Source: Bolinopsis microptera
Lineage: Eukaryota > Ctenophora > Tentaculata > Lobata > Bolinopsidae
Reading direction: 5' to 3'
DNA length: 64,000 nucleotides
Assembly: GCF_026151205.1 (NCBI RefSeq)
Contig: NC_087076.1
Coordinates: 7,910,902-7,974,901 of the forward strand
The notes under the pieces were generated by a model. That model ran no database searches. It was not told where the DNA came from and saw nothing but the letters and a program-made list of their open reading frames with translations. This document shows, piece by piece, positions 16,122-54,056 of this stretch. Position numbers and translations under genes: made by a program. Within the stretch, counting starts at the first letter, position 1, and each line of letters begins with the position of its first letter.

Positions 16122-19100
16122 ATGGGGTGTAAGAAGAATATTATAAAACTCCTCTTGGTGGTTTTCAATGTTATTGCTGTGGTAAGTTTCATCTAAAATA
16201 TTATTGACATTTCTTTGGTCGTTCAGTTAAAAGTTGGTTAGGGTTCATAATTTCTTCCCAACATGCAGGAGAAACTTACTTATGAAAAATATTCCTCTAG
16301 ATAATCGGTCTTGCTTTACTTGGAATTGGAGCTTACTCGAAATACGAATATGGAGACGTTCTAGCGATAACTGATAGCGCTTTTACCAGCATACCTGCCA
16401 TGCTAATGATAATCGGGGTTCTTGTCTTCATTCTCGGATTTTTGGGATGTTTTGGATCGTTCAGAGAAAACCGAGTTGTTCTCATTGTCGTAAGTTGTAA
16501 TACTGTGATATTTTTAATCTTTCTTGTTAAAATATATCCGCATATTGTTTCACAAACGATCTACACTGTCCAAAGAAAGGGAATTAGTACAATAAGTGTA
16601 ACACGCAGCTGGCCGAATGATTAGCATGTCTGGAGACTGACCCATATCGAGTGACTTATAATCACCATATAATAATAGTGATTGTATTCAACCTCACACC
16701 ACGTGACCATGTTTCAGTACACTATCCTCCTGGTCCTGGTCCTTATGGGAGAGGTTGTGGCTATCATTATATCTATGATCTACAAGGGAAAGGTTTGTTT
16801 AATTATGCATTATTTCATTATATTATTTTTGTATTATAATTACATATGAGTGCAGATTGCAGTGCACCCACTAAGGTGTTGTTATGGTTATTGAAAGGAT
16901 GGATAATATCCATTGAATATAGCAGGTCATGGAGTGTCCATGTGTACAAATTAATACTTTTATTGAGTGATTGCAACATCACGCAGTTTATGAGTGTATC
17001 TTCATTGTTTGAATGAAGCTTATCATCAAATATAGCGTTTTATCGCAGCATATCACGAATATTTGCAACTCATGTAATAAACTATAAGTTAATAGAATTT
17101 ATATTTATATACAGTACAATACAATGCACAGGACGTGAATTATTATTGTAAACTAAAACACACCGTATTGACATTCAATCCTAACTTACAAAATATATAT
17201 ATTTTTTCCCCCGAGCTTTTCATTCAGAATTAAAACAAGTCCTTCATATTATGGAACCAGGATGTGGACTGGCTACACCTGGTTGAAGCATCCCATTACA
17301 TAATACTGAAATTTACAATAAATTATGCAATCATAAAATTATGATCAACGAAATATATTCAATCATTTAATCATTTAATTTAATTATGTCATGTGATATG
17401 TCTTTCTTGTCTATTATCCTCGTTTACAGGGATTGGTAGCTGTGCATCTCTTCGTCCATGCTTACAAGAAGCACTCTGATCTTCAGAGGGCCTTTACTAG
17501 CTCCATTTACCTTCTTGTAAGAGTATTTAGCATTCTTTAGTATTGGGCTGAATTCTACATCCATATACCTTAGGGCCAACAAATTTGGGTCACAATAAAT
17601 TTGGTTAAGTTATAATTTTGGTTACCATAATTTTGGGCACAAATTTCGCAAATTTTTAGTCTACAACAATTTTAGTCGAAATTTTTGACTTTTCGAGACC
17701 ATTTTCCATTCCATTTATTTGATTTTTCCATTATAAGGAGTTTTTTTTTAAATTTCGCATATAAAGTCATACTTTATAGTGAACTAAGTACAGACAACGG
17801 AACACATAGTTCAAGGGGGCTATATTTATGAGTCGCATTCGAACTTGATTTCTCTTGGAGAATTTCTCTTTACACTCTTAACTTGCGAACAAATTGAAGC
17901 AGCAGACTTTAAGCTAGAAACTTTATTGAATAGAAATAATCATTCCACGTAACTACGTCTTCTTCAGTTCTGTAATAAAATTGTTAAACATGTGTAAAAT
18001 TAACGACGGAAAGAAATTTAAAATAACATTAAAACAAAAACAGAGAAATAAAATTTACGAAATTTTCTCCAAAAATGTAATTGAAAAAATTCAAAACAAC
18101 AAAAAATACGACAAGAAGAAATGTAAGCTAATACAACTAAATACTGTACTACTCATGATACTATACTAATTAGTAAACGTAAAACTGGTTGAACAGAATT
18201 CACAATTCATGTGTCAAAACTATTGATAAACTCAGCACTTAAGCAACGATAACTCGGTTGTCATGGTTACTATCCAAGATAGTCCTATCAATACATTACT
18301 TACTAGTTAAATATCGACTAAATATTTGTACAAATAACTCAACTCAGAATCCTAGAGCACATCCAGACTCCAGAGAATGGGGTTGGACAGCACTACGCAG
18401 TGCTGCTGAGTTTATCAATAGTTTTGACACATGAATTGTGAATTCTGTTCAACCAGTTTTACGTTTACTAATTAGTATAGTATCATGAGTAGCAGTGGCG
18501 TAACGAAAGGCCCTGCTGACCCCGCTGTGCAGGGGGGCGCCGTCTTAGGGGGGCGCCAAATCGTCGTTTGAATGTGGGACAATTTCGAAAACTTAACTAA
18601 AGTACTAGCAAAACTGCGCGTTTTGCTCTAGATACACACTTTTTTAGAGATTTTACCGGCGTATTCTTTAAAATCACCTAATTTGTTCAATTTTAGGGAG
18701 GGGCACCAAAAGGGGAGGGGGCGCCAACAGGGGGGCGCTTTTTTCGGCAGGGGGGCGCCAACAGGCAACGTTACGCCACTGATGAGTAGTACAGTATTTA
18801 GTTGTATTAGCTTACATTTCTTCTTGTCGTATTTTTTGTTGTTTTGAATTTTTTCAATTACATTTTTGGGTCATATTTCGTAAATTTTATTTCTCTGTTT
18901 TTGTTTTAATGTTATTTTAAATTTCTTTCCGTCGTTAATTTTACACATGTTTAACAATTTTATTACAGAACTGAAGAAGACGTAGTTACGTGGAATGATT
19001 ATTTCTATTCAATAAAGTTTCTAGCTTAAAGTCTGCTGCTTTAATTTGTTCGCAAGTTAAGAGTGTAAAGAGAAATTCTCCAAGAGAAATCAACGGAACA

Positions 19101-21386
19101 CATGTATCAGAAATTTCCCATGGGCCCACGTGCACACCGCGCGCCAAACGGTCACGTGGACAAATTATCAACCGAGCGTGATCCTGTAACTTACACCATA
19201 CGCCCGTATTTTGGTTAGGAGGAAGGATAGCATACAGTTTCTTATTACACGCAGTAGGGACCTGTGTACAGTTAGCGATATTTAACTGTTCATCATAAAC
19301 ATATGATAAAGAATGTAAGCTCAATGAAATTTAATTCATATATGCTCTGCTATACTTAAAGTTTGGTCTACTTCAAAATTAGTCGCCAAAAAATTTAGTC
19401 ACATGAAATTTGGTTTACAACAATTTTAGTCAAAAGTTTGACTAAATTTATGGTAGACTAAATTTGTCGTTCTTAAGGTACTGGGTAATAGTGTAAACTA
19501 GCAGAAAGCCCGTCCTCCGGACGGTTATTATTGGTTAATATCCCATTCTGCCCTCCTCGCCCCTCTCATATTTCCTCGCTTTCTCTCTTTACCCCTAAAC
19601 CTTAAGCTTTTCTCTCTGCTTTTCAGTTTAATCTCTTTTTACTCTTCATTCATATAATCTCTATCACAAGACTTTTCTGTAAGGAGGACTTGTACGAGGA
19701 TCATTCGAGAAGATGTAATATTTTAACTTTTCAAGGAATGTTAAGATTTATTGTACATACAGGCGGGTGATGCAATGTAGTATTGTTATGCGCGTTTAGG
19801 GTGCACTAAATACCTAAACATTGCTCACGTTACATAACAAATACTTAGTTCTACCCTGTTAAAGTGTACTGACACCCCACACTCGTATAGTATACCCCGA
19901 TTTACTGCGGAGTTAGTACTAATGTACAATATACACTGTTCATTCCGTGAGCAGCTTCTTTTTGCGCTAAATAGTACACAATAACTCAGCATCTGAGAAC
20001 AAAAGGCCCTGCTCAGTGTACTACTGAACATGGCACGTGACTGGAGAAGCTAGCTCTACACTTAGTACACTATGTCACGTGTCACACACACGTCTATTGT
20101 CTCGCCTCAGCGTCAATACCTTTACTATTCACAGAATTGAAGGCTGGGCCTTTCTGTTGTACAAACAATAGCCATGCTCGTGTAGCTTTAGTCTGGAAGT
20201 GGCTGGTAGTGGCTCCACTCACAGCTAGCTCACATTATCAAGAAAGGTATTCAATATAATATGCTGCTCAATTTCTAGCTGCTCGCGTTCCCAAATATGG
20301 ATTAATCATTCCTTGCAAGAAGTAATGATTATAAGGCATAAGCTGGTATTTGTACTACAAAATGCGTCCTCTCAACTCTAGATCTACACTTTCAGGAATC
20401 ACGTGACACAAGTGATACCTGGTAATATTATATTGATAGAAACCTATCTGCACAAAAGTAAGATAGGTAAGAGAGGGTTCACTCTTTAAATATTCCGCTT
20501 AATTGCTAACTTTATTACGTTAACCTTAAGAATATCCCATCTAAGGAATATCCCATCTTAAGAATATCCACCTGGACAATGTCCACCTGGATAATATCCA
20601 CCTGGACAATGTCCACCTGGACAATGTCCACCTGGACAATACACACCTGGATAATACCCACCTGGACAATATCCACCTGGACAACACCCACCTGGACAAT
20701 ACACACCTGGATAATACCCACCTGGACTATGTCCACCTGGATAATACCCACCTGGACAATATCCACCTGGACAATATCCACCTGGACAATATCCACCTGG
20801 ACAATATCTAGCTGGACAATGTCCACCTGGAAAATATCCACCTGGACAATATCCACCTGTATAATATCCACCTGGATAATACCCACCTGGACAATATCCA
20901 CCTGGACAATATCCACCTGGACAATATCCACCTGGACAATGTCCACCTGGACAATATCCACCTGGACAATATCCACCTGGACAATATCCACCTGGACAAT
21001 ATCCACCTGGACAATATCCACCTGGATAATGTCCACCCGGAAAATATTCACCTGTACAATATCCCACTTTTCACTCCTTGAATAATCAGGAGAATTAAGT
21101 GCGATGTGGCGTTGTATAGCAGCTGGGCAATGTGAAATAAATAACTGGGTCAGGTCCAATAATATCTAATACATATCTGTAAATGTTATTTATTGTTATT
21201 ATAACATGATTGATTTTATTGCAGATCGAAGAGTCGGTCGAAGACGGACTTGAGCTGAAAGTTGAGGGATACGTAACTGGGATAGCTGACGATATCGAGA
21301 TCATGGACAAGATACAGGTGCTCTATATATCAATACTTTTACTTTCACTTTCATTTTCACTTTCAATTTCCCTTTCACTTTCAATT

Positions 21387-21435
<49 letters not shown>

Positions 21436-29212: not shown

Positions 29213-29213
29213 T

Positions 29214-32200
29214 AGGGCCTGTCGTGATATCATGGATCGCTTAGGTTCCACCAGGATCTGGTAGTCCTCATAATTCTGCGGCCTCTATGTGTCGTCATCT
29301 TGCACAACTCCGAAAAACCGTTGTGAGTTTGGCATGTGAAAATTTGCAGCCCTCCAGACATCGATTGGGTTAACGAGTTGTCGTACGTCACCTCGAGATC
29401 GGGTGACAGGGGGCTGAACAGGCCAGAACCCAATTTATTGGGTCTGAGGTCACGTGATTATGAGCCTGAGGTCACGTGACTATGACGTCACCAGAGCTCG
29501 TTCTCCGTTTCCCGCTCTTTGGACCAGGTGAGCTTGCATGCTTGTGAAAGTGGGTGTAAGACGTAAGTACAGCTGTACTGTAGTTACATCCAATTACCCC
29601 TAATAGAATGAAGATTTATTTTCTGACAGAAAGCTATATAGAAATTTACCAAAATATCGACTTAGTTCAAAATTTATTTTGATGACCACTCCTGACCAAA
29701 AATTGCACGAGAAATCGATTAAACTTGGTTTCAGAACTAAACAATGCTCCCTTATGCCTTAAAATCCATTTTTATCGATACAATAAACATTTTGATCCTG
29801 TGGATTAATTAGTATAACAGGTAACAAATGCACAAAAAAAACCATCGCACTTACATTGCATTCTTAACGGGTCGATTTCGAGTGACCAATAATCGTCGTG
29901 ATGATATTTATACGTCATGCGTTCCTGATCATCATCAGCAATCAAGAGACAGGAGCGGCGATTGCTTTAAATCAACGGTTTACGTTATTTTTGTGAATTC
30001 GACCCCTGTTTTAACGGTTATCACACTTTGTCATTGAATGTATTGAGGATAGCTTTACAAATAAGAGGACCAGTAATTAAAATTGTCACAAATGTTTCTC
30101 TCATTCACTTTCGATAAGACACAATGAAAATTCTTACTTAACCATAAGATTCGGAATTTTTCAACCTTTGAAGAATATCGGAATTTTATAAAATGTAAGG
30201 AATATAAGGAATATAATTTCTTGCGGGAATAATTCCTGAAATATTGTCGACAGGTTCAAGTCTACTAGCAGGAACCCGTCTAACCCATTTTGACAGGTCT
30301 CGGGACCACCACGAATTGAATTATAAAGATCTATCTAAATTCCACGAAGACTACGGACCAAGTTTAAATACTTCATTATAGTTGGATTCGGGAAGTAGTT
30401 CAATTGTGCTTTGCACGGAACAACTTATATCACGAGACCGCCATTTCTGTTGAACCGAGAGATTGCAAATCAAACTAGTTTCAATTTCAGATCACCTTTT
30501 ATGTGTTCATTTGTGGTGGACTGGTCAGTATACAAACGTGGCACGTGCGGGCATATTTCTCAGTTTGAGTTACGAATTCCTTCATGCCTGAGTTAAGTAA
30601 TTCTTTGTGGTCGACTTGCTTTCGATCAAAACTTCATTAAATGAAATCGCTTTAGGGACATGTGTCATAACTTCATTACTACCAACGCGCACCAATTAGA
30701 CACCACCCTTGCAGTTGCTCTATGTAGTCGAGTTTTTCTCAGTCAGATTTGGTTGACTGTTATTTCTTTTTGAGGTCTCGACAAACAGCTGATCATACGG
30801 TAGGCATATGCGCGCTATATCTACGCCTTTGGCAAGATCATAGGACATAGAAGTTCAAGGAAATTTAACAACCATAACTTTAAACTTACTTGCTGGACAA
30901 CAAACGCAGCCACGTCGTAATTCTCCCAATAACTGCTGTGTAGAAGAGCTGGCAGGATGAGAGAAGGAAAAGAGCGCAGAGCTTCAGGATAGCTTTACAA
31001 ATAAGAGGACCAGTAAATAAAATTGTCACAAGTGTTTCTCTCATTCACTTTCGATAAGACACAATGAAAATTCTTACTTAACCATAAGATTCGGAATTTT
31101 TCAACCGTTGAAGAATATCGGGCATTTTTCAGAATTTGGCCGCCAAATTTTTTTAAAGGCCTAACTCAAAATTCTAATACAAAACTTAAGGTCATGAGGC
31201 GATTCTACGTCGATTCTGAAAATTTCATGAAAAAATATTGAAACCCTATTGAGTTCTATTGTTTTGCAAATATCGCGAACTGATATATGGGCGATTTTGT
31301 TCATTTTTTGCAACTATTTGAACACAGAATCCACAGTTAGGTAGATATTGAGCTGATAATCATAGATAATGTGTAGTATAAGCTTACCTTCCATATAAAG
31401 TTGGTTTCATTCAAAAATATTGATATTGGACCAATTTATGGGCCAAAATCGATCAAATTTGGTGCGTATGCCCAAATATGGTCATATGGTTTTTGGCTCA
31501 TAACTCAGTCATTTTTTGTCCAATCTTGATGAAAATTCATATACGAGTTCAGGGGACCACTAGCTACAAAAAAAGGGTTTTGGGCATGTTCAGGGTATTT
31601 GGCTAAATTGGGCCTGATTTGGACCAAATATGGGCGTGGCTGCCCCGCGGGCACCGTTTGGCGGTTGGGGTCCGGGACCCCTCAAAAGTTCGGTTGACAT
31701 CGGTCCTAGTTTGTTGGTTAACTGCTATCCCCCCCCCCTTAAGGCATAAGGAAGCATTGTTGAGTTCTGAAACCAAGTTTAATCGTTTTCTCGTGCAATT
31801 TTAGGTTAAGAGTGATCATCAAAATACATTTTGAACAAAGTCGATATTTTGGTAAATTTCTAGCTTTCTGTCAGAAAATAAATCTTCATTCTATTAGGGG
31901 TAATTGGATGTAACTACAGTACAGCTGTACTTAACCCACTTTCACAAGCATGCAAGCTCACCTGGTCCAAAGAGCGGGAAACGGAGAACGAGCTCTGGTG
32001 ACGTCATAGTCACGTGACCTCAGGCTCATAATCACGTGACCTCAGACCCAATCAATTGGGTTCTGGCCTGTTCAGCCCCCTGTCACCCGATCTTGAGGTG
32101 ACGTACGACAACTCGTTAACCCAATCGATGTCTGGAGGGCTGCAAATTTTCACATGCCAAACTCACAACGGTTTTTCGGAGTTGTGCGAGATGACGACAC

Positions 32201-32275
32201 ATAGAGGCCGCAGAATTATGAGGACTACCAGATCCTGGTGGAACCTAAGCGATCCATGATATCACGACAGGCCCT
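29214..32275. mobile_element. Foldback element with ~540-bp inverted repeats
   Basis: The arms 29214-~29763 and ~31737-32275 are near-perfect inverted repeats with outer ends AGGGCCTGTCGTGATATCAT and complement. The flanking direct repeat ATATCAATTT lies at 29203-29212 and 32276-32285. Long inverted repeats with a ~10-bp duplication suit a Mutator-type element. Internally a ~135-bp block (GATAGCTTTACAAATAAGAG onward) occurs at 30045-30180 and 30985-31123 in direct orientation. Each arm has an identical 67-codon frame, a by-product of the repeat. No transposase is visible. Confidence 0.8.
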
Positions 32276-33385
32276 ATATCAATTTACCAACATTCATTAT
32301 TCTAATTTGGAAGTAAGGATTGGTATTGTTTTTTATTACTATACCATGGAACGGATCGTATGCCCGTCAATTTGATTGTTTCAATTGTTCGAAATAATAA
32401 TAATCATATCTATATATAATATATATTGATTATTGATAATATGTATAATAATACAATAATATAATATATAATAATAATATCATCATTTCTGTTCTTGCTT
32501 ATCGTATCTTTTCTTAACATTAATATTCAGACTTCTCCTCCGACCAGACATTGTGATAATTTGGTTGCCTTCTTTTTGATTAATTATCGAGCTTTTCTTC
32601 GGCATCGTTTACTACTTTATAACGTTTACTGTTTATAACGTTAATCATATTTTACTATTTATAGTTTTTTATTTATAAATAAAAAGTTACTTTTCTTTCT
32701 TATGATCGAGATCTTTTAGGAGCTTTTTTTCCCTGATCCTGCCAGATCTTTTCATTAAGTTGTTGTTGTTACTTTCAAGTTTAAGTTTCAAAGTGAAAAT
32801 GAAAGTGAGTTTGTTACTTTCACAAATTTTCTTAGTTAAAGAGAGGTAAGAAATTGAAATAAAGTGTGAGCGGGTATGATAAAAAACAGAATATCAAAAT
32901 CTTATATCAGTTAGAAAAAATAGAATTAGAAATCACCACAACTGTCACCACAAATACAAACAGGTCAGTTTGATTGTTCAGCAGATTGAATAAAGCGCTA
33001 CATTTCGTACATCACACACTGATACATTCCTCTTTAGAATATCTAAGCTAATCTGCATTTTTGATAAATAATAAATAATTTGAAAACATCAAACTGGAGC
33101 TGAATTGTGAAAGAACTCCCAAAAATCTTCTGGTGAGCAGCCAATAAGAATTAAAATATCAAATATGGTCTCGCCCCGAAGAATATTAAACTTTCTCTTA
33201 ATCTTTACTTTTCATACTATTAGCTTAAAAGAGTAGGTCTGTGTAATATGTTTCTATAAAAATAGTTATGCCTGAAGTTCTAGTAGGTTGTAGAATGTTG
33301 TAGAATGTTGTAGTAGGTTGTAGTAGTTGAAGTAGGTCCCCAGTTTCCGAATTTAACTTTGGTGTTTGATCCATACTGACGATAG
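32276..33385. other. AT-rich intergenic stretch
   Basis: Dinucleotide-rich (TA/ATA) around 32400-32490. No gene seen. Confidence 0.4.
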
Positions 33386-36300: not shown

Positions 36301-38051
36301 CGTTGAGGTTACACAAACTACCTGCAATTTGTTGCTATAGTTACACAAACTATTTGTAGTTTAGTTGCTATAGTTCCTCAAACTACCCGTTGCTATACAG
36401 ACTAACTTTCTACGCATTTTAAATAGTTGTTACTTACTAATTGGAGCACATATATAGGATGTGTGTTTAGTGTTGTCCGGATCCTGACTCCGCAAGCAAT
36501 TATCGGGTCTGTGACAGTTCGTCTGAAGAAATAAGCGTTACAAAACACTATCTTGGTATGCAAAATATAATAAATATTGATAAATAAAACCTGCACTTTT
36601 ACAATTAATATAATCATCACTGCACAATAACAAATAAACTATGACATTTTTAATTAAGAACGGAGAAAAAACTCGCAAATCAACATATAATATAAATAAA
36701 TAATATAGTTATCAGTTATAATTATATTCAAATTTACTTACGTCGCAATGTTTCGCCATGCGCGTCTCCTCCGCAAACTTTCCTGGGGCTACCTCTCTCA
36801 CCGTAGTTCCCAGCTCCTGATCCCAGACACAATTCGTTGGACACAATTCGCTGTCTACATTTCTGGACGACAATTTTCCATGATGGTGTTTCCCTTTGGC
36901 TTTTCCTTTGGCTTTTCCTTTTGCTTGTACGAGCGATAAAATTATCACCACAAACTCTGCAAAACAAACTGTTTATGAACACTACGAGCAGCTTTGCTTG
37001 CTTTGAGCGACACAAACATGCTGTAAATTATTTGAGCGATTGACTACCTTAGTTCCCAAAAATTTGGGCGACCAAAAATTTGAGCGGGCCTCTCGCCCAA
37101 ATTTTTTGCAGACCAAATTAATTGCATAAATCTTTTCCGTCTGCTAAATTTTTTGCTAACCAAACTTTTGGCATTTGGCCTGTGGCCCTGAAATCTATAG
37201 AAAGATGGCTTTTTCTTCATATCCAAGTGAAATAATATTTGAAATTTTAGTTTTCTAATCTGTCATTCATGGCTTGACCAAGTAAAAAGGCTTATATTTT
37301 AAATGATTAGAAATAACTGGAATTAGACTTCAAGACCTTTGGTCCGGGTTTACAGTAGTTCGCTACACACAATTATGTACACCTTTGTTTCCCCCAAAGC
37401 TAAGCGTATGTGCCGCTTAGTTTGATAGATCATGATGTAAACCTTCTAATTTTCTTCCAAACCTTTCGACCATCTGTTGAGGCGTCATAATGATAATTGT
37501 ATGTGAAAGGGGTATGATAAGATATGCTGAGTGTAAGTAGACTAAACTATCTGATTGAGAGACTAAATATCACTATTGTATATCTATCATTTTGTACTGT
37601 GCCTGGTGCCATCATCACTGTATTTTTAGTAGTTACTGGGCAGATCGTAAATTTCATAATGTGAAACAACTCAGACTACCACCTACATGCTTAATATTGA
37701 AAGCAAAATGACTGGAATAATAAGGAATAATAATGAACTAAGGCAAATATCTAACTGACATTTTAGTGGAAAATCGTTCATTTTTCGAAGAATTTGTGCC
37801 CAAATTTTCGGTCGCCCAAATGAGTTCAAATTTTCTGCCCAAATTTTTCGGGCTCAAATAAATTGTGCTCAATATAATGGCACACAAATTTTTGGGAACT
37901 AAGGTATACTAAACTTATAGAAGATGTGCCGAATTTAATGAAACGGTCCCAATAATTGAAAGTAGTGGTGCCAAAAGTTACAACATCTTGTAAACACTAA
38001 ACAAGGATAATATAAAATCTCACCTAATAGTTTGATGAGGCGGGATGACAT
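33386..38051 (-). CDS. Secreted Cys/Thr-rich, probably GPI-anchored protein (6 exons)
   Basis: Minus-strand exons: 38051-38024, 36956-36742, 36522-36438, 35208-34987, 34665-33979 and 33642-33386. Phases agree at every junction and the product is 497 residues. The intron after 33979 begins GCAAGT (a GC-AG intron); the others are GT-AG. Residues 1-21 form a signal peptide split by intron 1 (MSSRLIKLL then EFVVIILSLVQA), followed by KGKAKGKAKGKHHHGK. Then come Cys-rich segments (LCPTNCVWDQ, TNCHRPDNCL, ENCPVCMRPDL, RCVEGDSCWLFE), ten copies of TTNKPEI at about 219-288, a TKPP-rich stretch, a second Cys cluster (NCGEQGDCF, GCVQTC, VTCVNGDD) and a C-terminal hydrophobic tail (SFTVLTTFLLPFFTSLLL) without a following cytoplasmic segment, as in GPI signals. 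The Cys pattern loosely recalls Ly6/uPAR domains. Function unknown; a cell-surface mucin-like stalk protein is likely. Confidence 0.8.
34320..34572. repeat. 21-bp coding minisatellite
   Basis: The unit TTTGTTTGTAGTGATCTCCG plus G is repeated about ten times and encodes TTNKPEI on the minus strand. Variation is nearly absent (two units have TTATTT in place of TTGTTT), so copy number is probably polymorphic. A neighbouring ~15-bp degenerate repeat at 34185-34285 encodes TKPPx. Confidence 0.95.
35787..36050. mobile_element. TTAA-flanked miniature element (264 bp)
   Basis: A perfect 33-bp terminal inverted repeat begins GGGGACATACACCAAAACCT, and TTAA lies on both sides (35783-35786 and 36051-36054). 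TTAA duplication points to a piggyBac-like mobiliser. It lies in the intron between the exons at 36522-36438 and 35208-34987 of the minus-strand gene. Confidence 0.9.
37047..37904. mobile_element. TA-flanked element with CCTTA ends, member 2 (858 bp)
   Basis: The 20 outer bases at each end are identical inverted copies, CCTTAGTTCCCAAAAATTTG, and TA flanks both sides. Subterminal DNA repeats AAATTTxxGG(G/C)C motifs, as in member 1. It sits in intron 1 of the minus-strand gene that ends at 33386. Confidence 0.85.
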
Positions 38052-39139: not shown

Positions 39140-42100
39140 TTCAACTATAGGTGGCATATGACACGATTAATGTACTGGATCTTCATTTTCGGTCGGAGGA
39201 AGCCCGCAGCAACAAAACGAAAATATGTATTCTTGCTCAAAAACCAATTAGTCAGTTAATTGATGATGGTATGGAACCGAATTGAGGTACTGAAACTCAA
39301 ATCCCGAAGAAAATTGCAAAATCATATTGTCCTATTTTCTGTCCCATTTTCAGTTTTCGAAGATGAAATTTCCAGGATCGAAATTTTACAGCTTTGACTG
39401 AATTTATCACCCGCAACCATTACCAATTAGTTAGTCAACCATAGGTGGCATATGACACGATTGAGGTGCTGGAACTTTGATTTCGGTCGGAGGAAGCTCA
39501 CAGCAGAAAACTTAACGAAACGAAAATTTGTATTTTCCAAACTCTGTCCCATTTTCAAATATCAAAATTTCTGAACACATTTTGACAGATTGGGTGAACA
39601 CAATTGGGGTGAACACAATTTGACAGATTGGGTGAACTTTTTGCTCAGAAACTAATTAGTGAGTTGATTGATGATGGTATGAAACCAAGTTGAGATACTG
39701 GAACTCAAAATCCCGAAGGAAATTGCAAAATCATATTGTCCTATTTTCTGTCCCATTTTCAGTTTTCAAAGATGAATTTCCAAGACAGAAATTTTACAGT
39801 TTTGACTGAATTTATCGCCCGCAACCAATAAGTCAGTTAACTATAGGTAGCATATGACACGATTGAGGTGCTGGAACTTTGATTTCGGTCGGAGGAACCC
39901 CACAGCAGAAAACTTAACAAAACGAAAATTTGTATTTTCCAAACTCTGTCCCATTTTCAAATATTTTACAGTTTTGACTGAATTTATCGCCCGCAACCAA
40001 TAAGTCAGTTAACTATAGGTAGCATGTGACACGATTGAGGTGCTGGAACTTTGATTTCGGTCGGAGGAAGCCCACAGCAGAAAACTTAACAAAACGAAAA
40101 TTTGTATTTTCCAAACTCTGTCCCATTTTCAAATATCAAAATTTCTGAACACAAATTTGACAGATTGGGTGAACTTTTTGCTCAGAAACCAATTAATGAG
40201 TTAATTGATGATGGTATGAAACCAAATTGAGATACCGGAACTCAAAATTTCGAAGAAAATTGCAAAATCATATTGTCCTATTATATTTTCTGTCCCATTT
40301 TCAGTTTTCGAAGATGAAATTTCCAGGATCGAAATTTTACAGCTTTGACTGAATTTATCGCCCGCAACCAATAAGTCAGTTAACTATAGGTGGCATATGA
40401 CACGATTGAGGTGTTGGAACTTTGATTTCGGTCGGAGGAAGCCCACAGCAGAAAACTTAACAAAACGAAAATTTGTATTTTCCAAACTCTGTCCCATTTT
40501 CAAATATCAAAATTTCTGAACACAAATTTGACAGATTGGGTGAACTTTTTGCTCAGAAACCAATTAGTGAGTTAATTGATGATGGTATGAAACCAAATTG
40601 AGGTACTGCAACTCAAAATCGCGAAGGAAATTGCAAAATCATATTGTCCTTTTTTCTGTCCCATTTTTAGTTTTCGAAGATGAAATTTCCAGGATCGAAA
40701 TTTTACAGTTTTGACTGAATTTATCGCCCGCAACCAATTAGTCAGTCAACTATAGGTGGCATATGACACGATTGAGGTGCTGGAACTTTGATTTCGGTCG
40801 GAGGAAGCCCACAGCAGAAAACTTAACAAAACGAAAATTTGTATTTTCCAAACTTTGTCCCATTTGCAAATATCAAAATTTCTGAAAACAAATTTGACAG
40901 ATTGGGTGAACTTTTTGCTCAGAAACCAATTAGTGAGTTAATTGATGATGGTATGAAACCAAATTGAGATACCGGAACTCAAAATTTCGAAGAAAATCGC
41001 AAAATCATATTGTCCTTTTTTCTGTCCCATTTTCAGTTTTCGAAGATGAAATTTCCAGGATCGAAATTTTACAGTTTTGACTGAATTTATCGCCCGCAAC
41101 CAATTAGTCAGTCAACCATAGGTGGCATATGACACGATTAAGGTGCTGGAACTTTGATTTCGATCGGAAGAAGCCCACAGCAGAAAACTTAACAAAACGA
41201 AAATTTGTATTTTCCAAACTCTGTCCCATTTTCAAATATCAAAATTTCTGAACACAAATTTGACAGATTGGGTGAACGTTTTGCTCAGAAACCAATTAGT
41301 GAGTTAATTGATGATGGTATGAAACCAAATTGAGATACCGGAACTCAAAATTTCGAAGAAAATTGCAAAATCATATTGTCCTATTTTCTGTCCCATTTTC
41401 AGTTTTCGAAGATGAAATTTCCAGGATCGAAATTTTACAGCTTTGACTGAATTTATCGCCCGCAACCAATTAGTCAGTCAACCATAGGTGGCATATGACA
41501 CGATTGAGGTGTTTGAACTTCGATTTCGGTCGGAGGAAGCCCACAGCAGAAAACTTAACAAAACGAAAATTTGTATTTTCCAAACTCTGTCCCATTTTCA
41601 AATATAAAAATTTCTGAAAACAAATTTGACAGATTGGGTGACCTTTTTGCTCAGAAACCAATTAGTGAGTTAATTGATGATGGTATGAAACCAAATTGAG
41701 ATACCGGAACTCAAAATTTCGAAGAAAATTGCAAAATCATATTGTCCTTTTTTCTGTCCCATTTTCAGTTTTCGAAGATGAAATTTCCAGAATCGAAATT
41801 TTACAGCTTTGACTGAGTTTATCGCCCGCAACCAATTAGTCAGTCAACCATAGGTGGCATATGACACGTTTGAGGTGTTGGAACTTTGATTTCGGTCGGA
41901 GGAAGCCCACAGCAGAAAACTTAACGAAAGGAAAATTTGTATTTTCTAAACTCTGTCCCATTTTCAAATATCAAAATTTCTGAACACAAATTTGACAGAT
42001 TGGGTGAACTTTTTGCTCAGAAAGGGGGGGGGGGGGGGGGGGGGGGGGATTATGTTATTTTTTGTCCGTTTTTGTCCGTTAATTTTTGTCCGTTTTGAAA

Positions 42101-45100
42101 ATATAGCTGCCAAACGGACAAAAACGGACAAAAACGGACAAAAACGGACAAAAATTGTAACTTTTTATTTAAATTTTTGTCCACAATTTGTAATAGGCTA
42201 TCTGCAGAAATGGGTAGCCCGGTTAACGACCATGGTCCTTTCTCTTTTAATCCTCAATTAGGCAAAGAATAGTCTAAACATTTTTTAATAACATAAAAAG
42301 CTAAAGGGATGAAAAGTTTTATTACTGGAGAGTAAAACTTTGTTAAACACAAAGATTCTTGAGCACATTTTGAGTCAGACTCAAATGCGTTTAAAAACGT
42401 TTTAGTATATAACAATAAATTATGTAAACAATAACACCAACAATAATTATAAGAAGAAGGAGGACTGATGAGGCTAGGAGGATGAGGATGAGGAGGAGGG
42501 TGACTGGGGGGAGGATTGAGGAGGAGGAGGAGGACTGAGGAGGAGGAAGAGGAGAAGGACTGAGGAGGAGAAGGACTGAGGAGAAAGAAGAGGAGGAGGA
42601 TTGAGGAGGAGTTTTATTACTGGAGAGTAAAACTTTGTTAAACACAAAGATTCTTGAGCACATTTTGAGTCAGACTCAAATGCGTTTAAAAACGTTTTAG
42701 TATATAACAATAAATTATGTAAACAATAACACCAACAATAATTATAAATTGAACAAATTATTGAGAGATGAAATAGAGGAAGAGGAGGAGGGGGACTGAG
42801 GAGGGGGACTGAGGAGGAAGAGGAGGGGGACTGAGGAGGAGTGAGACTGAGAAGGAGAACTGAGAAGGAGGAATGAATAGGAGGAGGAGGAGGAGAAGAA
42901 GGACTCAACAGGAGGAGGACTGAGGAGGAGGAGGACTAAGGAGAAGGATGAGGACCCAAGAGGAGGAGGACCCAAGAGGAGGAGGACCCAGGAGGAGGAC
43001 CCAGAAAAATTCCCCATGAGGAGGACTGGGGAGGACTGGGGAGGAGGAGGACTGATGAGGACTGATGAGGACTGATAAAGAGGACTAAGGACAAGGAGGA
43101 GGAGGAGGAGGAGAAGGACTGAGGAGTGAGGAGGAGGACTGATGAGGAGAAGGAGGTGTTTGAGGAGGATGAGGAGGAGAAAGGAGATGGAGGATGAGGA
43201 GAAGGAGGACTGAGGAGGAGGACTGATGAAGAGGACTTATGAGGAGGAGGACTGAGAAGTAGGAGTAGGAGGAGGACTGGGGAGGGGAGGACTTAGGATA
43301 AAGAGGAGGATTGAGGAGGAGGAGGACTGAGGAGTAGAAGGAGGACGAGGACTGAGGAGGATCAGGAGGACCCAGGAGGATGAGGAAGAGGAGGAGGACT
43401 GAGGAGGAGGACTGAGGAGGAGAAAGAGGACCCAGGAGGAGGAACCAGGAAGAAGAGGAGGAGGAGGAGGACTGAGAAGGAGGACTGAGAAGGAGGACTG
43501 AGAAGGAGAAGGAGGACTGATGAGGCTAGGAGGATGAGGATGAGGATGAGGAGGAGGGTGACTGGGGGAGGATTGAGGAGGAGGAGGAGGACTGAGGAGG
43601 AGGAAGAGGAGAAGGACTGAGGAGGAGAAGGACTGAGGAGAAAGAAGAGGAGGAGGATTGAGGAGGAGGACCCAGGAGGAGGAGGACCCAGGAAAAGGCC
43701 CCAGGAGGAGGAGGACTGATGAGGAGGAGAAGGAAGTGGATGAAGATGATGAGGAGGAGGAGGACTGAGGAGGAGGAGGAGGACTGATAAGGAGGAGGAC
43801 TGAGGAAACATGAGGAGGAGGAGGAGTGAATAGGAGGAGGAGCACTGGGGAGGACTGAGGAGGAGGAGGACTAAGGAGAAGGATAGGAGGAGGACTAAGG
43901 AGGAGGATGAGGATGAGGACTGAGGAGGAAGCATCTAAATGTTATTTCCATTTTTGTTATTTTTTGTCCGTTTTTGTCCGTTTTTGTCCGCTCGTTTTTT
44001 TTGTCCGTTTTGAAAATATAGGGTTGGGACTGAAGAGGACTGAAGAACTGAAGGAGGACTGAAGAGGGCTGAGGAGAAGGATGAGGTGGAGGACTAAGGA
44101 GGAGGACTGAGGAGCAGAACTGCAGACTGAGGAGGAAGAGGAGGAGGATGAAGAGGAGGAGGATGAAGAGGAGGAGGAGGAGGACTCAGGAGGAGGAGGA
44201 CCCAGGAGGAGGACTCATGAGGAGGAGGAGGACTGAGGAGGATGACTGAGGAGGATGACTGAGGAGGAGATGGAAGAGGAGGAGGAGGAGGAGGAGGAGG
44301 AGGAGGACTGAAGAGGAGGAGGACTGACGAGAAGGATGAGGAGGAGGACTGAGGAGGAGGACTGAGGAGGAGGACTGAGGACTGAGGAGGAAGAGGAGGA
44401 GGATGAAGAGGATGAAGAGGAGGAGGAGAACCCAGGAAGAGGAGGATTGAGGAAGAGGATGAGGACTGAGGAGGAGGAGGACTGAGGAGGACTGAGGAGG
44501 ACTGAGGAAAACTGAGGAGGATGGCTGAGGAGGATGGCTGAAGAGGATGGCTGAGGAGGATGGCTGAGGAGGATGGCTGAGGAGGATGACTGAGGAGGAT
44601 AACTGAGAGGGAGGAGGAGGAGGACTCAGGAGGAAGAGGAGGAGGAGGAGGAGGAGGAGGAGGAGGAGGAGGAGGAGGAGGAGGAGGAGGAGGAGGAGGA
44701 GGACTCAGGAGAAAGAGGAGGAGGAGGACTCAGAAGGAGAAATGAGAAGGAGGAGAACTGAGGAGGAGGAGGAGGACTGAATAGGAAAAGGAGGGGGACT
44801 GGGGAGGACTGAGGAGGAGGAGGACTGACGAGAAGGATGAAGAGGAGGACTGAGGAGGAGGACTGAGGAGCAAGAGGAGGAGGATGAAGAGGAGGAGGAG
44901 GACCCAGGAGGAGGAGGACTGAGGAGGAGGATGAGGACTGAGGAGGAGGAGGAGGACTGAGGAGGACTGAGGAGGACAGAGGAGGATGGCTGAGGAGGAT
45001 GGCTGAGGAGGATGACAGAGAGAGAGAGGGGGAGGAGGAGGAGGAGGACTCAGGAGGAGGACTGAGGAGGAGAACTGAGGAGGACTGAGAAGTGAGAAGG

Positions 45101-46310
45101 AGGAGGACTGAGGAGAACTGAGGAGGAGGACTGAATAGGAGGAGGAGGGGGACTGGGGAGGACTGAGGAGGAGGAGGATTGAAGAGGACTGAGGAGAAGG
45201 ATGAGGAGGAGGACTCAGGAGAAGGACTGAGGAGGAGGATGAAGAGGAGGATGAAGAGGAGGAGGAGGACTCAGGAGGAGGAAGACCCAGGAGGAGGACT
45301 CATGAGGAGGTGGAAGAGGAGGAGGAGGAGGAGGAGGAGGAGGAGGAGGAAGAGGAGGAAGAGGAGGAGGAGGAGGAGGAAGTATCTAAATGTTATTCCA
45401 TTTTTGTTATTTTTTGTCCGTTTTTGTCCGTTTTTGTCCGCTTTATTTTTTGTCCGTTTTGAAAATATAGCTGCCAAACGGACAAAAACGGACAAAAAAC
45501 ATGATCCCCCCTCAGAAACCAATTAGTGAGTTAATTGATGATGGTATGAAACCAAATTGAGATACTGGAACTCAAAATTTCGAAAAAAATGCAAAATCAT
45601 ATTGACCTATTTTGAATTTTCTGTCCCATTTTCAGTTTTCGAAGATGAAATTTCCAGGATCGAAATTTTACAGCTTTGACTGAATTTATCGCCCGCAACC
45701 AATTAGTCAGTTTACTATAGGTAGCATATGACACGATTGAGGTGCTGGAACTTTGATTTCGGTCGGAGAAAGCTCACAGCAGAAAACTTAACGAAACGAA
45801 AATTTGTATTTTCCAAACTCTGTCCCATTTTCAAATATCAAAATTTCTGAACACAAATTTGACAGATTGGGTGACCTTTTTGCTCAGAAACCAATTAGTT
45901 AGTAAATTGATGATGGTATGAAACCAAATTGAGATACCGGAACTCAAAATTTCGAAGAAAATCGCAAAATCATATTGTCCTTTTTTCTGTCCCATTTTCA
46001 GTTTTCGAAGATGAAATTTCCAGGATCGAAATTTTACAGTTTTGACTGAATTTATCGCCCGCAACCAATTAGTCAGTCAACTATAGGTGGCATATGACAC
46101 GATTGAGGTGCTGGAACTTTGATTTCGGTCGGAGGAAGCCCACAGCAGAAAACTTAACAAAACAAAAATTTGTATATTTCAAACTCTGTCCCATTTTCAA
46201 ATATCAAAATTTCTGAACACAAATTTGACAGATTGGGTGAAATCTTTGCTCACAAAATTAGTAAGTTAATTGATGATCGTATGAAACCAAATTGAGGTAC
46301 TGGGAGTTTG
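39140..46310. repeat. ~366-bp satellite array, interrupted
   Basis: A unit starting near ATAGGTGGCATATGACACGA recurs with spacing of about 365-367 bp (for example near 40386, 40752, 41119, 41486 and 41851), with some truncated or fused units near 39440-40020. The array stops at 42023 and resumes at 45511 after the inserted element, with about two more units. Copies diverge by a few per cent. The short open frame at 41470-41661 is a by-product. Confidence 0.95.
42024..45510. mobile_element. 3.5-kb polypurine element, 8-bp target duplication
   Basis: The left end is 25 G followed by ATTATGTTATTTTTTGTCCG and the right end is the complement of GGGGGATCATGTTTTTTGTC. The satellite sequence CTCAGAAA is duplicated outside both ends (42016-42023 and 45511-45518). 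Subterminal TTTTTGTCCG units are arrayed in both orientations, with an internal copy of this end at 43945-44022. The interior from about 42450 to 45390 is almost pure GA on the plus strand (GAGGAGGAGGACTGA variants). An exact ~140-bp block is duplicated at 42312-42450 and 42611-42748. No transposase is visible and superfamily is unknown. Confidence 0.85.
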
Positions 46311-47800: not shown

Positions 47801-47804
47801 TTCG

Positions 47805-48008: not shown

Positions 48009-48063
48009 CCCGAAATAAATAAATGTGTATATATATATATATATACACATTTATTTCTTTCGG
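48009..48063. repeat. AT-rich hairpin
   Basis: CCGAAATAAATAAATGTG and its complement flank a TA run, giving about 25 bp of stem. Confidence 0.6.
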
Positions 48064-48715: not shown

Positions 48716-49536
48716 CCCGAATGTGAATTTTTAAAGATGGGTTTTAACTGAGTGTCATTTAACTGAGAGGAGACTTTCTCACACTTTCTTGCCCGGCTAT
48801 TGCTCAAGTAGGGGGGTGACCAACCCAAAAAAACCCAAAAAACCTTTCCCAAAATGGAAATTTCACGTAAAGTTGGGTTTTTTTTGGGTTTTTGTGGGTT
48901 TTTTAAAGAGTAAAGAGTAAAGAGTGTAGTAAAAAAGGTACACTTTTTAACACTTTTAATTACACTTAACAAAATTATCTTCTAAAAATCTTCTTTTTTT
49001 CCTATTATTTTCCAATCAGTCTTTACATTAAGTGCATTTCCAAAGGTAAAACATACCATTGCTTTGGTTAGAAAAAAATGTCACTTTTTAGCATTTTTAA
49101 GGCTATTTTAGGCTATTTTACACTACACTTTTTTACACTACAGTTTTGCCTTTTTTATGCATGGTGTAACCTTCCCCAGGGTTGCCATATATATAATACC
49201 CCAGAGGCGGGCAGAGCATCCTCATGCTATCCTCTCGTGGGCTATCCAAGCTCAGCCTCTCATTAAAAAAACCGTCACAATGTCAATAATGGGTCCTCAG
49301 GTCCTGTATCAAATTGTGCACGCGAATAAGTTCATATAAAATACAGTAAATGATAAACTACATATTAAATGGATACCTCGTACTTGAACAACATAATACA
49401 ACAAGATACGTCAGAGCGTGACGTCACTCGTCAGAGCGTCATGACGACCGCGGAAGAAACATGTTATTTGAAGGAGCAACACTCTTAAGTCTGTTATTGT
49501 TAAGAAGCACTCTAACAGGAGCCAGTCTGCAGATTT

Positions 49537-50139
49537 ATGTTCATTTTATTCACATTCTTCATCTTTGAATGTATCCGGCTCGTTGTTGAAATAATGATTG
49601 CTCTCTCTGCAGTTCTCGCAGCTTTCTGTATCACCTGCACCAGTTCAACTGAGGAGCTGAACCACAGTGCAACTGCTTTAGTTGGAGAAACTGGAGGAAG
49701 TTGCCTGGAGTTGTGCATGTCAGAGGGGGTCTGTATAGGGGAGATGTGTGATGAGCGGTGTACAGCTAGATGTACTACGGGGGTAGGTGAGATGGTTCAA
49801 ATATCAGACAAAAGTAGAATCTGTATGAAGAATTGTACGCAGGTCACTGAATGTAACGCTAGATGCATCACGGGTGACAGGATTGAAAAATCAAGAAATG
49901 TTAAAAAATGTATGAAAAACTGTTTACAGTTCACCGAATGTTGCACCAATGAGTGCGTAAAGGAGTGCAAAAAGGCGTGCTGGATTAATTATACTGGTAT
50001 TAACAAGGAGCAGAGCCGCAACAGAGAGAAGGTGAGTAGCAGAAGAAGGGAACTGGTAAAAAGGACGGACGGACGGGATACAAGAAGAATAGGAAGGCGA
50101 CCAAAGCAGAGAAAGGCTCATCAAAGAAGACGTAATTAA
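49537..50139 (+). CDS. Small Cys-rich secreted protein, Arg-rich tail
   Basis: Up to 200 codons are open. Translation could start at 49537 or, more like a normal signal peptide, at codon 20 (49594), giving MIALSAVLAAFCITCTSS. The body has a repeated Cys pattern: CLELCMSEGVCIGEMCDERC, ICMKNCTQVTECNARC, and KCMKNCLQFTECCTNECVKE then CKKAC. The tail is very basic (RRRELVKRTDGRDTRRIGRR, PKQRKAHQRRRN). The last few codons and the stop lie in sequence matching the LINE tail described at 48397-48715, so the natural C-terminus may be earlier or spliced (a GTGAGT lies at about 50032). I do not recognise the family. Confidence 0.5.
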   Translation: MFILFTFFIFECIRLVVEIMIALSAVLAAFCITCTSSTEELNHSATALVGETGGSCLELCMSEGVCIGEMCDERCTARCTTGVGEMVQISDKSRICMKNCTQVTECNARCITGDRIEKSRNVKKCMKNCLQFTECCTNECVKECKKACWINYTGINKEQSRNREKVSSRRRELVKRTDGRDTRRIGRRPKQRKAHQRRRN

Positions 50140-50912
50140 GAAAGAAAGAAATTATGGATAAACAGACTGGAAACAGCTCAAAATGTTTTAAGTATAACTT
50201 CGAACGTTATTATTTATTGATGTTATCGCATTTTGAAATTTTATTTATTTATCTGCGTTGGAGCCTACTAGACTGTTAATGGCTATATTTTTGCGACATA
50301 ATAATAATAGTGTGTATTATGTAATATGCACATATAATGCACATATAATGCACACATAATGCACATATAATGCAAATATAATGCACATATAATGCACATA
50401 TAATGTACATATAATGCACTATGAGAACCTCTTTAACTGTCTGGCTGGTCACGTGACAAAACCAATCAACTACCTTACTCGGGATTATTACGACGGGTTT
50501 ATTAACGACCGGTTAAAATATGGTTCGGGAAAAATATGGCGAAATTGCTCAAAACCCACCACATTTTCCCGGTCGCCATTTTACCGGTGTCCAACCTTTC
50601 AATTTTAGATTCAAAAATTTTGTCTGAGATGTAAATTTCCTTATTAGAGATAAGCAGGTTCAGAAATTTTCGCATTGCTAAAACTTGTGAAACAAGTCGA
50701 ATTATCAATAATTGTTGAAAGTAGACTCTAGCAAATTCGTTGTTTTGAATTAGCATTACATGTCACAGTGCTGGCAAGCACGACCGTTGCATTTATTGTG
50801 GGTATACTATGTACCCCATTTACTATTATACCCCCTTTACTATTATACCCCCTTTACTAATATACCCCCTTTACTATTATACCCCCTTTGGTACACGTTA
50901 CTAGCCTCTTTC

Positions 50913-50966
50913 GTGCACGCGAAGCGTGCACTCCGGTGGGAGGCGGCGGCCGAAGGCCGCCGCCTC
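50913..50966. other. Two adjacent perfect hairpins with GAA loops
   Basis: GTGCACGC-GAA-GCGTGCAC at 50913-50931 is followed by GAGGCGGCGGCC-GAA-GGCCGCCGCCTC at 50940-50966. The block is GC-rich in AT-rich surroundings. Confidence 0.9.
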
Positions 50967-52370
50967 CGGCAAAAGTTTTTCAGGCATTAAGACTCATCGG
51001 AAGTCGTTCAGCAGATTTATTTTTAGTTCAAAACATACTAATTTGATGTCAAAGATGACAGGAATAAAAAATAAAATAGTTAAGTTGAGATTTTTAAGAA
51101 ATTTGCATAAAATACTCGTCAGCACTGTTATACGAAATTCGGTAAAAAACCCAAAATCGCCATATTCAGGTGCCTTAAAAACCATGTTAAAATTGAGTTA
51201 GAGATTTGAAACTTTGCAGGGCGTCTAGACGTTGACCAAATCGACTGTAAAAAAAATTTCGTGTTTCAGGAGCATCGGGAAATGGGTTTTCTGGAACCCC
51301 TGTTTTACGACAGATTGTCGTGATACATACATACATACATATATTCAGGGATAGACGCTTTGCCAGTCAATTGTAGCCTGTATTTAATTGTCTATAGATT
51401 CAAAAGTATAAAAGATACAGCCATTTCCGACCACAGGTCTTGAAGATAATTGTTTACACTTTAGTTTACATTGTATAAACAAATTATTTGACGTCATGAA
51501 CACCCCTTGATGACGTCATCAAGTTAACTGTTTTTAAAACTTGAATTTTGAAAAAGTAATAACTTTTAAAAATGATTTTACATCATTAAAAAGTAATTGT
51601 ATTCAAAATCTGAGGAAATTTTCACCTCAGATAATTGTTCAAGCATTCTGAAAATCTACCAGAAAGTTTTTCTAGCTTGCTCCTTCATAAAGATATTCGT
51701 CATTGAAGTTTGTGCTTTTTTGAAGAATTATTTTATAAAAACGTCAATTTTGCGATTTAGTATTCTCTGGTGTTGGGCCATGCCTTGGGTTGTGGAGCTC
51801 AGTTCTGCTTTCTATAGGTATTAATTGTGCATTAGGCTAGTTTTAAAGTTGAAAGTCAAAAAGTTGCACACGTGGGGACACGCCCAAATTGATAGAAAAT
51901 TGCTAAAATCACTGAAAATTGCTGTTTTCGTCATTTTCTGTCAACTTTAGAGTGCCGTTGTGATTACAGTTCTTCTTGAAATACTTTCAAACTTTGCATG
52001 CTTATTAAACTATATATAAAACAATTACATGCAAATATTTACGGCGATTCAATATTAGATGCGCACGAAACGTCCGCTCAAAGTTTGCACGTGCGAAAGG
52101 TGAGAATTTTGCTCATTCGTGATTTCCAACAAATTCTGCTTTGCCACGACAGTTTAATGTCATTACATATGAATTTAATGCCAACTTGAATGAGTATTAA
52201 GTGGCATATTCAGTCAGTGATCGACCGATATGCTTACCTAAACACAAGGAAATGTTTTTAAAGGAAAAATTTCGAAATCGTTGAAACTTCCTCCTTATTA
52301 ATGAAGATATCAGAACTTTATATTTCGACTTTATAAAGTACCCTGACATTATAATCAAAAAGAGATGATA

Positions 52371-52874
52371 TTTGACCAAAACCCATAATCATGGGTAGAG
52401 TGGACCGCTGCCAGTGTCTCTCTTTCCCAAACAAAAGGAAATGATATTAATTTGATTGACCGTTCTCAAATGCAAAATGATACCGAGAATGAAATCGGTC
52501 GCTCGCTTTTCCCATTCATTTACAATTGTAATAGATTAAGAAGAACTACCCAAAGGCAGCTGTACTTGGCAATAAAGATTCAATAAACTTCAGCTAATTC
52601 AATAAGTAATAACTACCACCCTTACCCCGAAATACAAGGTATCGACCCGAACGCAACCCAAAGAGATTTTTACAGCATCCGATTGATGTAATCAATCGAA
52701 ACTTATTACAATTCGTAAGCCGTGAATGAATGGGAAAAGCGAGCGACCGATTTCATTCTCGGTATCATTTTGCATTTGAGAACGGTCAATCAAATTAATA
52801 TCATTTCCTTTTGTTTGGGAAAGAGAGACACTGGCAGCGGTCCACTCTACCCATGATTATGGGTTTTGGTCAAA
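52371..52874. mobile_element. 504-bp inverted-repeat element
   Basis: Arms of about 150 bp, starting TTTGACCAAAACCCATAATC, are near-perfect inverted copies (52371-52522 and 52726-52874). No clear target duplication was found. It lies within the 2.9-kb TA element. Confidence 0.75.
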
Positions 52875-53527
52875 TTTACGTGTATCAAATAACCATTATG
52901 ACTCAATTTGTAGAAAATCTTCGAAAGAATGCATCGTTCACATTGTTTAGAATTATGAATAAATGACTGATGAAACTGATTCATGTTATTGACCGTTTTA
53001 ATTAATTCGAGTTTTAATTTAACTGTTACTTTTACTTTGAGTCCTATTTCATTATGTAAAGATATTCACTACCTAAGAAATTAAAAATTGGCCTATTTAA
53101 ATCAACTTTGACAATAAGGATATATGACAAGAATTGGGCAAAAAGGTGAATTTTTTGCAATTTTAGCCAAATGAAGTCGAAAAACCTACAACAAGTGTCC
53201 CAATAGTCTTCTTTAGTGAATACAAGACAACCATTAAAATATGAGCACCCATACCCCTTGGGAACCCTAAAAGCTGAGTCGGCGGGTTTATTAACGACCG
53301 GTGAAAATGTGGTTCGGGAAAAATATGGCGAAATTACCCTAAACCCGCCACTTTATCCCGGTCATAATAATCCCGAGTAAGGTAATCAATATTGAACGTT
53401 TCGCAAGGCATGACGTAATTTACGGCTGTTAACTCATATTCTATTTGGCCGTTTCTTTAGCAGAGTAAGAACTGCAGGATCACGAGCCCTTTAACTGGTT
53501 TATAGATATAACCATTGAAAGTGATTA

Positions 53528-54056
53528 CCTTAGTCGGTAATATTATTGGGGGGGGGGGGGGGGGGGGATTATGGGAGCTAAAAATATGGACTGTTATAAA
53601 TATGCCAATATGGTTCTTTGGCCCAAAAAGAACCAAATTCGACCCCCCACAATTTTAACTGCGACTTTCCTTTCGTGAAAAAATCTCAAATCGAATTGTA
53701 CACTGCAACGAAACAGCTGCTGCTGAACTTGTATTATTCATCTGAAGTTGCTGATCTGAAATTTAAATTTAAATTGTTCCTAGTTAACCCCTCAAATTGA
53801 AAGGATGGTGGGAATAGTAGACAAATCGGACTTTTTGAACCAGAACTAGCTTCAATTCAGCAAACAATAACGTAAGCATACTTCTGGACGTAAATGAAAG
53901 AAACGTTAATCATATTATGACTGATATACCAAAAGGAACACCAAAATTTGACTCGGGGGGTTAAATTATGGGGGGTAAAAATATGGACTGTTATAAATAT
54001 AGTTCTTTGGCCCGAAAAGGACCAAATTAGACCCCTCATAATATTACCAACTAAGG
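53528..54056. mobile_element. TA-flanked element with CCTTA ends, member 4 (529 bp)
   Basis: Ends CCTTAGTCGGTAATATTAT and CCTTAGTTGGTAATATTAT are inverted copies with TA on both sides. A 21-22 base G run follows the left end. The pieces AAATATGGACTGTTATAAAT and TTCTTTGGCCC occur near both ends. It begins only 145 bp after member 3. Confidence 0.85.

Follow-up and report, generated by a model that had tools for sequence, protein, structure and literature searches.

CCTTA-tipped elements of Bolinopsis microptera as probable short derivatives of pogo-like transposons with an additional HIRAN-domain gene

The window analysed here is a stretch of 64,000 nucleotides of the Bolinopsis microptera genome (NCBI RefSeq assembly GCF_026151205.1, contig NC_087076.1, positions 7,910,902 to 7,974,901 of the forward strand), in which an earlier note had described four elements (el1 to el4, Table 1) with a TA flank and CCTTA at the tips. 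These four are very likely non-autonomous derivatives, resembling miniature inverted-repeat transposable elements (MITEs), of pogo-like cut-and-paste transposons of the IS630-Tc1-mariner group. This reading is based on sequence comparison with five families (A to E) that have the same tips and carry a DDE_1 transposase together with a separate open reading frame (ORF) for a HIRAN-domain protein. Our high confidence applies to the identity of the elements, and not to the role of the HIRAN protein.

All four elements start with TACCTTA, end with TAAGGTA and have matched inverted ends. The window (GC 37.9%) contains five TACCTTA/TAAGGTA pairs less than 4 kb apart in which 12 or more of the 20 bases beside the tip match, namely the four elements and one cross pair (50471/54058), whereas 200 dinucleotide shuffles of the window gave a mean of 0.005 and a maximum of 1; chance alone would not be expected to produce tip pairs matched this well. 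All four elements also belong to interspersed multicopy families, as was seen in searches of the genome (264.65 Mb in 232 contigs, window included). The el2 tip (22 bases, up to three mismatches) occurs at 518 places and its reversed pattern at 6; the corresponding counts are 1277 and 0 for the el3 tip (24 bases, up to three mismatches) and 568 and 0 for the exact el3 tip (20 bases). When 100 of these 568 places were listed, neighbours less than 10 kb apart stood in the order '+-' 36 times, '-+' once, '++' once and '--' never; 36 of the 38 neighbour pairs were thus inverted, and their commonest length was 805 bp. Used as a DNA query, el2 gave at least 54 matches (40 of 281 candidates scored), el4 at least 68 (40 of 90 scored) and the left 240 bases of el1 at least 44 (40 of 349 scored), 30 of which start exactly at TA. 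Among the scored matches, 25 span positions 1-862 of el2 at 91-100% and seven are essentially full-length copies of el4 at 77-100%, with the window copy counted in both cases. For the family of el3 (family 3), the reference copy in locus L027 is 805 bp long; the other fetched copies match it at 95-100% wherever they overlap with it, and the match of a diverged relative (L020) is about 79%. The window shuffles and genome counts confirm the shared TA flank, the CCTTA tips and the matched inverted ends that had been described, and they show a multicopy state.

The TA target was borne out by an empty site. In L022, an el2-family copy is inserted in a family-3 copy whose uninterrupted sequence is GTCATATATCC, and the filled site reads GTCA-TA-[CCTTA...TAAGG]-TA-TATCC, which gives an exact 2-bp TA duplication from one paralogous empty site. 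In a flank table, all 29 elements also have TA on either side, and no flanking position is above 0.54 bit; the TA count is not independent of the search because most of these elements were found by their TACCTTA tip. The flank table left out, for example, L007, L020, L029, L037+L053, L041+L049, L050 and L054+L036, as well as L006, whose left end is missing; in each of L010 and L011, which it includes, a single base of one tip is changed.

Transposase-bearing relatives with the same tips were found by searching the genome with the DDE_1 profile, which gave at least 123 matches (150 of 220 candidates scored). Among 100 listed el2 tips, 13 lie no more than 2 kb from such a match; among 100 listed el3 tips, none does. 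The proteins of families A, B, C and E score 36.8, 38.4, 33.7 and 48.7 bits against a cut-off of 22, and that of D scores 33.4 bits in the genome scan. The transposase is a single open frame in L038, L039, L040, L041 and L046, with lengths of 489 (A), 518 (B) and 501 (C) amino acids. In L042 (family D) it is split by an insertion of about 3.7 kb containing a 1004-amino-acid frame, in L047 it is interrupted by a stop, in L048 by an insertion near its start, and in family E it lies in two open stretches, perhaps separated by an intron. The second and third Asp are 35 residues apart in all five families (D-D35-D, with the residues assigned by motif and not by structure), which falls inside the published pogo range of DD29-59, and the first Asp sits in DQTP in every family. 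Over the aligned part, the transposases of B, C, D and E are 48%, 28%, 32% and 37% identical to that of A. Ahead of the catalytic part, a GRP motif is present in A, B, C and E (as RGRP in B, C and E); one may speculate that it makes an AT-hook-like contact with A/T blocks.

Element el2 consists of both ends of the family A transposon in L038 at 96-97% identity and is an internally deleted copy of it; it is short, non-coding and multicopy and has its ends in common with a transposase-bearing element, as a MITE does. For el1, el3 and el4, which are likewise multicopy, the assignment to the group rests on their ends. The diverged family-3 relative in L020 retains a HIRAN fragment with 55% identity over 76 amino acids to the family E HIRAN protein, one open frame of the L027 copy ends in an acidic tail that by eye resembles the tails of the transposon proteins, and the ends of family 3 and family E, set out in rows, also look alike by eye. 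These features together tie family 3, and hence el3, to the group.

Several spans between distant tips were considered as longer elements and rejected. The 9.4-kb span in L001 is part of a large palindrome (L001:1-9863), in which the ends and flanks of the span read alike and el2-family pieces stand at both ends. The 6.1-kb el3-tip pair in L020 is an inverted arrangement of the diverged relative, and the 4.1-kb pair in L021 is a copy carrying a nested insertion. Two full-length family-3 copies stand in opposite orientation in L029:101-1719, with 9 bp between their TAs.

The second gene of these transposons is a separate ORF for a predicted HIRAN-domain protein of 178-234 amino acids, counted from stop to stop, which is present in all five families. 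It is divergent to the transposase in B to E and runs in the same direction in A. Families A (26.3 bits), C (25.7-25.9 bits) and D (26.9 bits) score above the Pfam cut-off of 24.7 bits, the ORFs of B and E align with them along the core, and no other Pfam domain above its cut-off was found in the ORF. When a profile of six of these proteins was compared with the PDB, HIRAN chains of HLTF were five of the six best matches (10 matches at E<=10), among them 4s0n, 4xzf and 5bnh. The HIRAN domain of HLTF is described as binding a 3'-OH end and as being disabled by N90A-N91A (PMC11237066). At the aligned Asn pair, which would correspond to N90-N91 of HLTF, families C and D have NN, A and B have DN (with an adjacent N in B) and E has ND.

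A genome scan for HIRAN gave 14 matches at E<=0.1, 10 of them above the cut-off; the scan is incomplete, because the HIRAN domain of family E, which was found as an ORF, is absent from the list. All 14 were inspected: 12 are enclosed by exact TACCTTA and TAAGGTA ends, L040 has one such end and L052 none. A DDE_1 match is present within 6 kb of nine; the others are L043, L044 and L045 (family C), L051 (family D) and L052. Elements with an open HIRAN frame and no transposase are found at L043:1327-2766, L044:1494-2753, L045:1209-2713 and L051:2803-3682, and the deletion junctions of L043, L044 and L045 all differ. The idea that HIRAN-only copies are a sign of selection for HIRAN was set aside, since the sample is biased by the HIRAN-based search. 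The listings of a literature search, mostly confined to open-access papers, showed no report of HIRAN in eukaryotic DNA transposons, and neither HIRAN nor ctenophores are mentioned in the accessible text of PMC7325037. Another paper suggests that mobile elements, bacterial restriction systems among them, might have given rise to HIRAN (PMC2292703).

Behind the tip, the terminal 130 bp have a 16-bp period in A, C, D and el1 and one of 14-16 bp in B, which none of 200 shuffles reached. This test of eight families was made after the positions of 6-mers at the ends had been seen, so its P values are post hoc, and it used a single terminal length of 130 bp; neither it nor the inverted-unit test included the left end of el4. 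When the terminal sequences of C and D are written 16 bases to a row, two direct units, a spacer and then inverted units appear. Over 15 ends, inverted-unit matches sum to 185, compared with a mean of 159 and a maximum of 167 in 100 shuffles; taken end by end, P<=0.01 was obtained in 4 of 15, P>0.1 in 6 of 15 and values between in five. Enrichment of a single 6-mer at the ends, judged by dinucleotide-preserving shuffles, was not significant in six of eight families and passed only in D and el4, in the latter owing to its G-run. The AAATTT and GGTAATATT blocks reported near the ends look like family-specific arrays of degenerate units of about 16 bp (five of eight families, post hoc). With such arrays behind the tip in several families, the statement that only the outermost bases are common has to be revised. 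The arrays can be regarded as putative family-specific binding sites behind a common cleavage tip.

Based on these features, we propose a mechanism in which the transposase would bind the family-specific arrays before cutting, and the DDE_1 protein would cut and paste at TA, with cleavage at the fixed TA/CCTTA tip. Internally deleted copies that retain their ends would move in trans. The HIRAN protein would bind 3' ends set free at the donor site or on the excised element and help to hold, join or repair them. As a whole, we tentatively suggest, at rather less than an even chance, a two-gene pogo-like lineage in which a DD35D transposase works with a HIRAN partner that captures cleaved 3' ends and serves as the element's own end-binding repair module, while the arrays of ~16-bp sites, direct near the tip and inverted further in, co-diverge with the transposase and CCTTA stays fixed. 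Taken by itself, the role of HIRAN in holding 3' ends, which is argued by analogy with HLTF, is conceivable, with the chances leaning against it.

Several results weigh against this proposal or parts of it. The N-terminal DNA-binding domain typical of pogo was not found by Pfam in the scanned transposases: CENP-B_N, HTH_Tnp_Tc5, HTH_psq, BrkDBD and HTH_ABP1_N gave no match in A and C (E<=10), in B (E<=1) or in the N-terminal pieces of D and E, and for this reason we use the label 'pogo-like'. The transposase profile had no match in the PDB. The HIRAN scores of B (23.0 bits) and E (20.4 bits) are just under the cut-off, and the profile match to HLTF is weak (E 0.15-0.2) and serves as a lead only. 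The terminal period is marginal in family 3 (0.055), and none was found in E and el4. In addition, the genome DDE_1 scan and the listed tips gave no transposase-bearing copy of the el1, el3 and el4 families, so that copies with a DDE transposase, which the earlier note had proposed to look for, are known for families A to E and not for these three.

The lack of such copies would also suit a different explanation, namely that a single lax transposase reading little beyond TA-CCTTA moves all families. Some of el1, el3 and el4 could then be moved by the enzyme of another family, and no bases other than TA and CCTTA are shared by all families. However, the five families have their own transposases, with only 28-48% identity to A over the aligned part, and their own repeated end units; several diverged families with a common tip and target are the simpler reading because both the transposases and the unit sequences differ from family to family. 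The idea of one transposase that recognises very little, as raised in the earlier note, is therefore very improbable. The HIRAN ORF, for its part, could be a passenger or a captured host gene without any role in transposition, in elements that are otherwise ordinary pogo-like transposons. Copies of the transposase without a nearby HIRAN match exist (for example C12:8590539), the gene has the other orientation in family A, and the ORFs of B and E match the domain weakly. On the other hand, a homologous HIRAN ORF is present in all five families despite the wide divergence of the transposases, which points to long retention, and HIRAN in the genome scan lies almost only in CCTTA-tipped elements. 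We regard a passenger as unlikely; the probability left by this and by end-holding falls to other roles, for example in regulation or in movement coupled to replication.

The elements might instead belong to another group that duplicates TA, either PHIS/Harbinger-ISL2EU (PHISTA) or CMC (ESTA, Mirage). PHISTA and ESTA are reported to make TA duplications in fungi (PMC12730594), and the genome contains 114 DDE_Tnp_4 matches. Nevertheless, the copies with TACCTTA/TAAGGTA ends match DDE_1, the CCTTA-flanked proteins gave no match to DDE_Tnp_4, as PHIS proteins would, the tips are CC..GG and not CA..TG, and in the 7-8 kb fetched for each of six Harbinger-type loci with DDE_Tnp_4 (L014-L019), no paired TACCTTA/TAAGGTA ends are present. 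This reading is largely refuted by L038 for family A, and overall there is hardly any room for it. Tc1/mariner proper was also considered: the CCTTA-family transposases gave no DDE_3 match, and the two DDE_3 loci sampled (L012 and L013) have TACAGGGTG tips and no paired TACCTTA/TAAGGTA ends in the sequence fetched. These two loci contain elements of about 1.42 kb (L012:3547-4966 and L013:3567-4986) that are 98.9% identical, have a 398-amino-acid frame and are of the ordinary Tc1/mariner type; their inverted ends begin CAGGGTGTT, with TA adjoining in L013. Further DDE_1 candidates were set aside, namely a 384-amino-acid ORF in L055 with no TACCTTA within 6 kb, and ORFs with a Psq domain and no paired tips in L032 and L034. 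Neither of the two protein alignments, of transposase and of HIRAN, matched viral_contigs.

Table 1. Elements and nested repeats in the window (coordinates of el1 to el4 include the flanking TAs) and transposase-bearing families in the genome.
Feature	Location	Strand	Length	Remarks
el1, CCTTA element with TA flanks	17566..19480	.	~619 bp minus nested insert	
Nested repeat in el1	17795..19103	.		312-nt inverted arms; 13-bp flanking direct repeat, both copies included; foreign to el1 proper
el2	37045..37906	.	862 bp	MITE-like; internally deleted derivative of family A transposon (L038)
el2 left terminal part	37045..37174	.	~130 bp	matches L038 end with 16-base rows
el2 right terminal part	37777..37906	.	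~130 bp	matches other L038 end
el3, family 3 element	50471..53384	.	~797 bp minus nested insert	
Nested repeat in el3	50760..52876 (about)	.	~2.1 kb	very abundant; foreign to el3 proper
el4, CCTTA element	53526..54058	.	533 bp	run of ~20 G near left end
Family A	L038		4104 bp	el2 tips; TACCTTA/TAAGGTA ends
Family B	L039; L048; C2 (L037+L053)		3303 bp (L039); 3647 bp (L048)	TACCTTA/TAAGGTA ends
Family C	L046; L047; C12 (L049+L041); L040		4132 bp (L046); 4146 bp (L047); 4159 bp (C12)	TACCTTA/TAAGGTA ends; one end seen in L040
Family D	L042		6822 bp	TACCTTA/TAAGGTA ends
Family E	L054+L036		3486 bp	TACCTTA/TAAGGTA ends

The inserts in el1 and el3 alter two descriptions given earlier. Sizes of 0.5 to 2.9 kb had been reported, and the actual range is about 0.5-0.9 kb once the nested repeats are removed; part of the difference in contents that had been noted is due to these foreign repeats. 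The el1 insert, flanked by the 13-bp direct repeat at 17795-17807 and 19091-19103, is an abundant foldback-like repeat (2726 candidates in the genome, 40 scored). The el3 insert gave 2950 candidates (40 scored) and is missing at the corresponding point of L025; several of its copies stand in direct or inverted clusters. One end of this repeat is itself an inverted repeat with 154-nt arms (52370-52875), which looks like a Harbinger MITE; judged by eye, the start of its arm resembles that of the 153-nt repeats at the ends of a 3.3-kb element (L016:1421-4764), in which a DDE_Tnp_4 transposase is accompanied by a Myb/SANT ORF. Elsewhere in the window, units repeated in both direct and inverted orientation lie at 14017-15247, a region with three tRNA matches, and an inverted repeat with 343-nt arms, 99% complementary and 2.4 kb apart, lies at 29213-32276. 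Strong strand asymmetry was seen at 42000-46000 (GC skew ~0.6, AT skew ~0.35), where long S/P-rich frames on the minus strand are probably simple repeats.

In conclusion, the Bolinopsis genome contains at least five families of pogo-like elements, together with short derivatives whose tips were counted at many hundreds of sites. If a HIRAN partner has indeed been retained while the families diverged widely, it would be a new accessory function for the pogo superfamily and would link transposition to 3'-end and replication-fork repair. The fixed tip with family-specific site arrays can also be a useful set for the study of how end recognition evolves. According to a survey of the pogo superfamily, which includes Passer, Fot/Fot-like, Tigger, pogoR, Lemi and Mover, pogo is absent from Ctenophora (PMC7386202), and in another paper Ctenophora are excluded for Tigger (PMC9219625). 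No match to CCTTA tips was found in the literature search.

Compared with known pogo elements, the transposons described here have the same TA duplication, DDE_1 domain and short inverted ends, the DDxD triad with 35 residues that is stated for Passer and Fot/Fot-like, and lengths inside 1.2-5.2 kb except for L042, which holds an insertion (PMC7386202). They differ in the CCTTA tips, the extra HIRAN ORF and the ~16-bp period of the ends, and also in the lack of a Pfam-detectable N-terminal domain, although the same is stated for Mover (PMC7386202). The HIRAN protein resembles HLTF in its Pfam match (above the cut-off in A, C and D) and in a core that aligns with the PNNPYD stretch, with Asn-Asn kept in C and D; in contrast to HLTF, it is a stand-alone ORF in a transposon, and the aligned pair is DN in A and B and ND in E. 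Like Stowaway-type and other Tc1/mariner MITEs, the window elements are short and non-autonomous, with a TA target and inverted ends; their CCTTA tip and their probable derivation from a two-gene pogo-like element set them apart. Two-gene transposons are also described among PHIS, where Harbinger has Myb/SANT and ISL2EU has YqaJ (PMC4482050). The working would be similar, with a transposase and one separate accessory protein that acts on DNA or DNA ends; PHIS, however, have a DDE_Tnp_4 transposase, a TWA or AT duplication and another partner protein.

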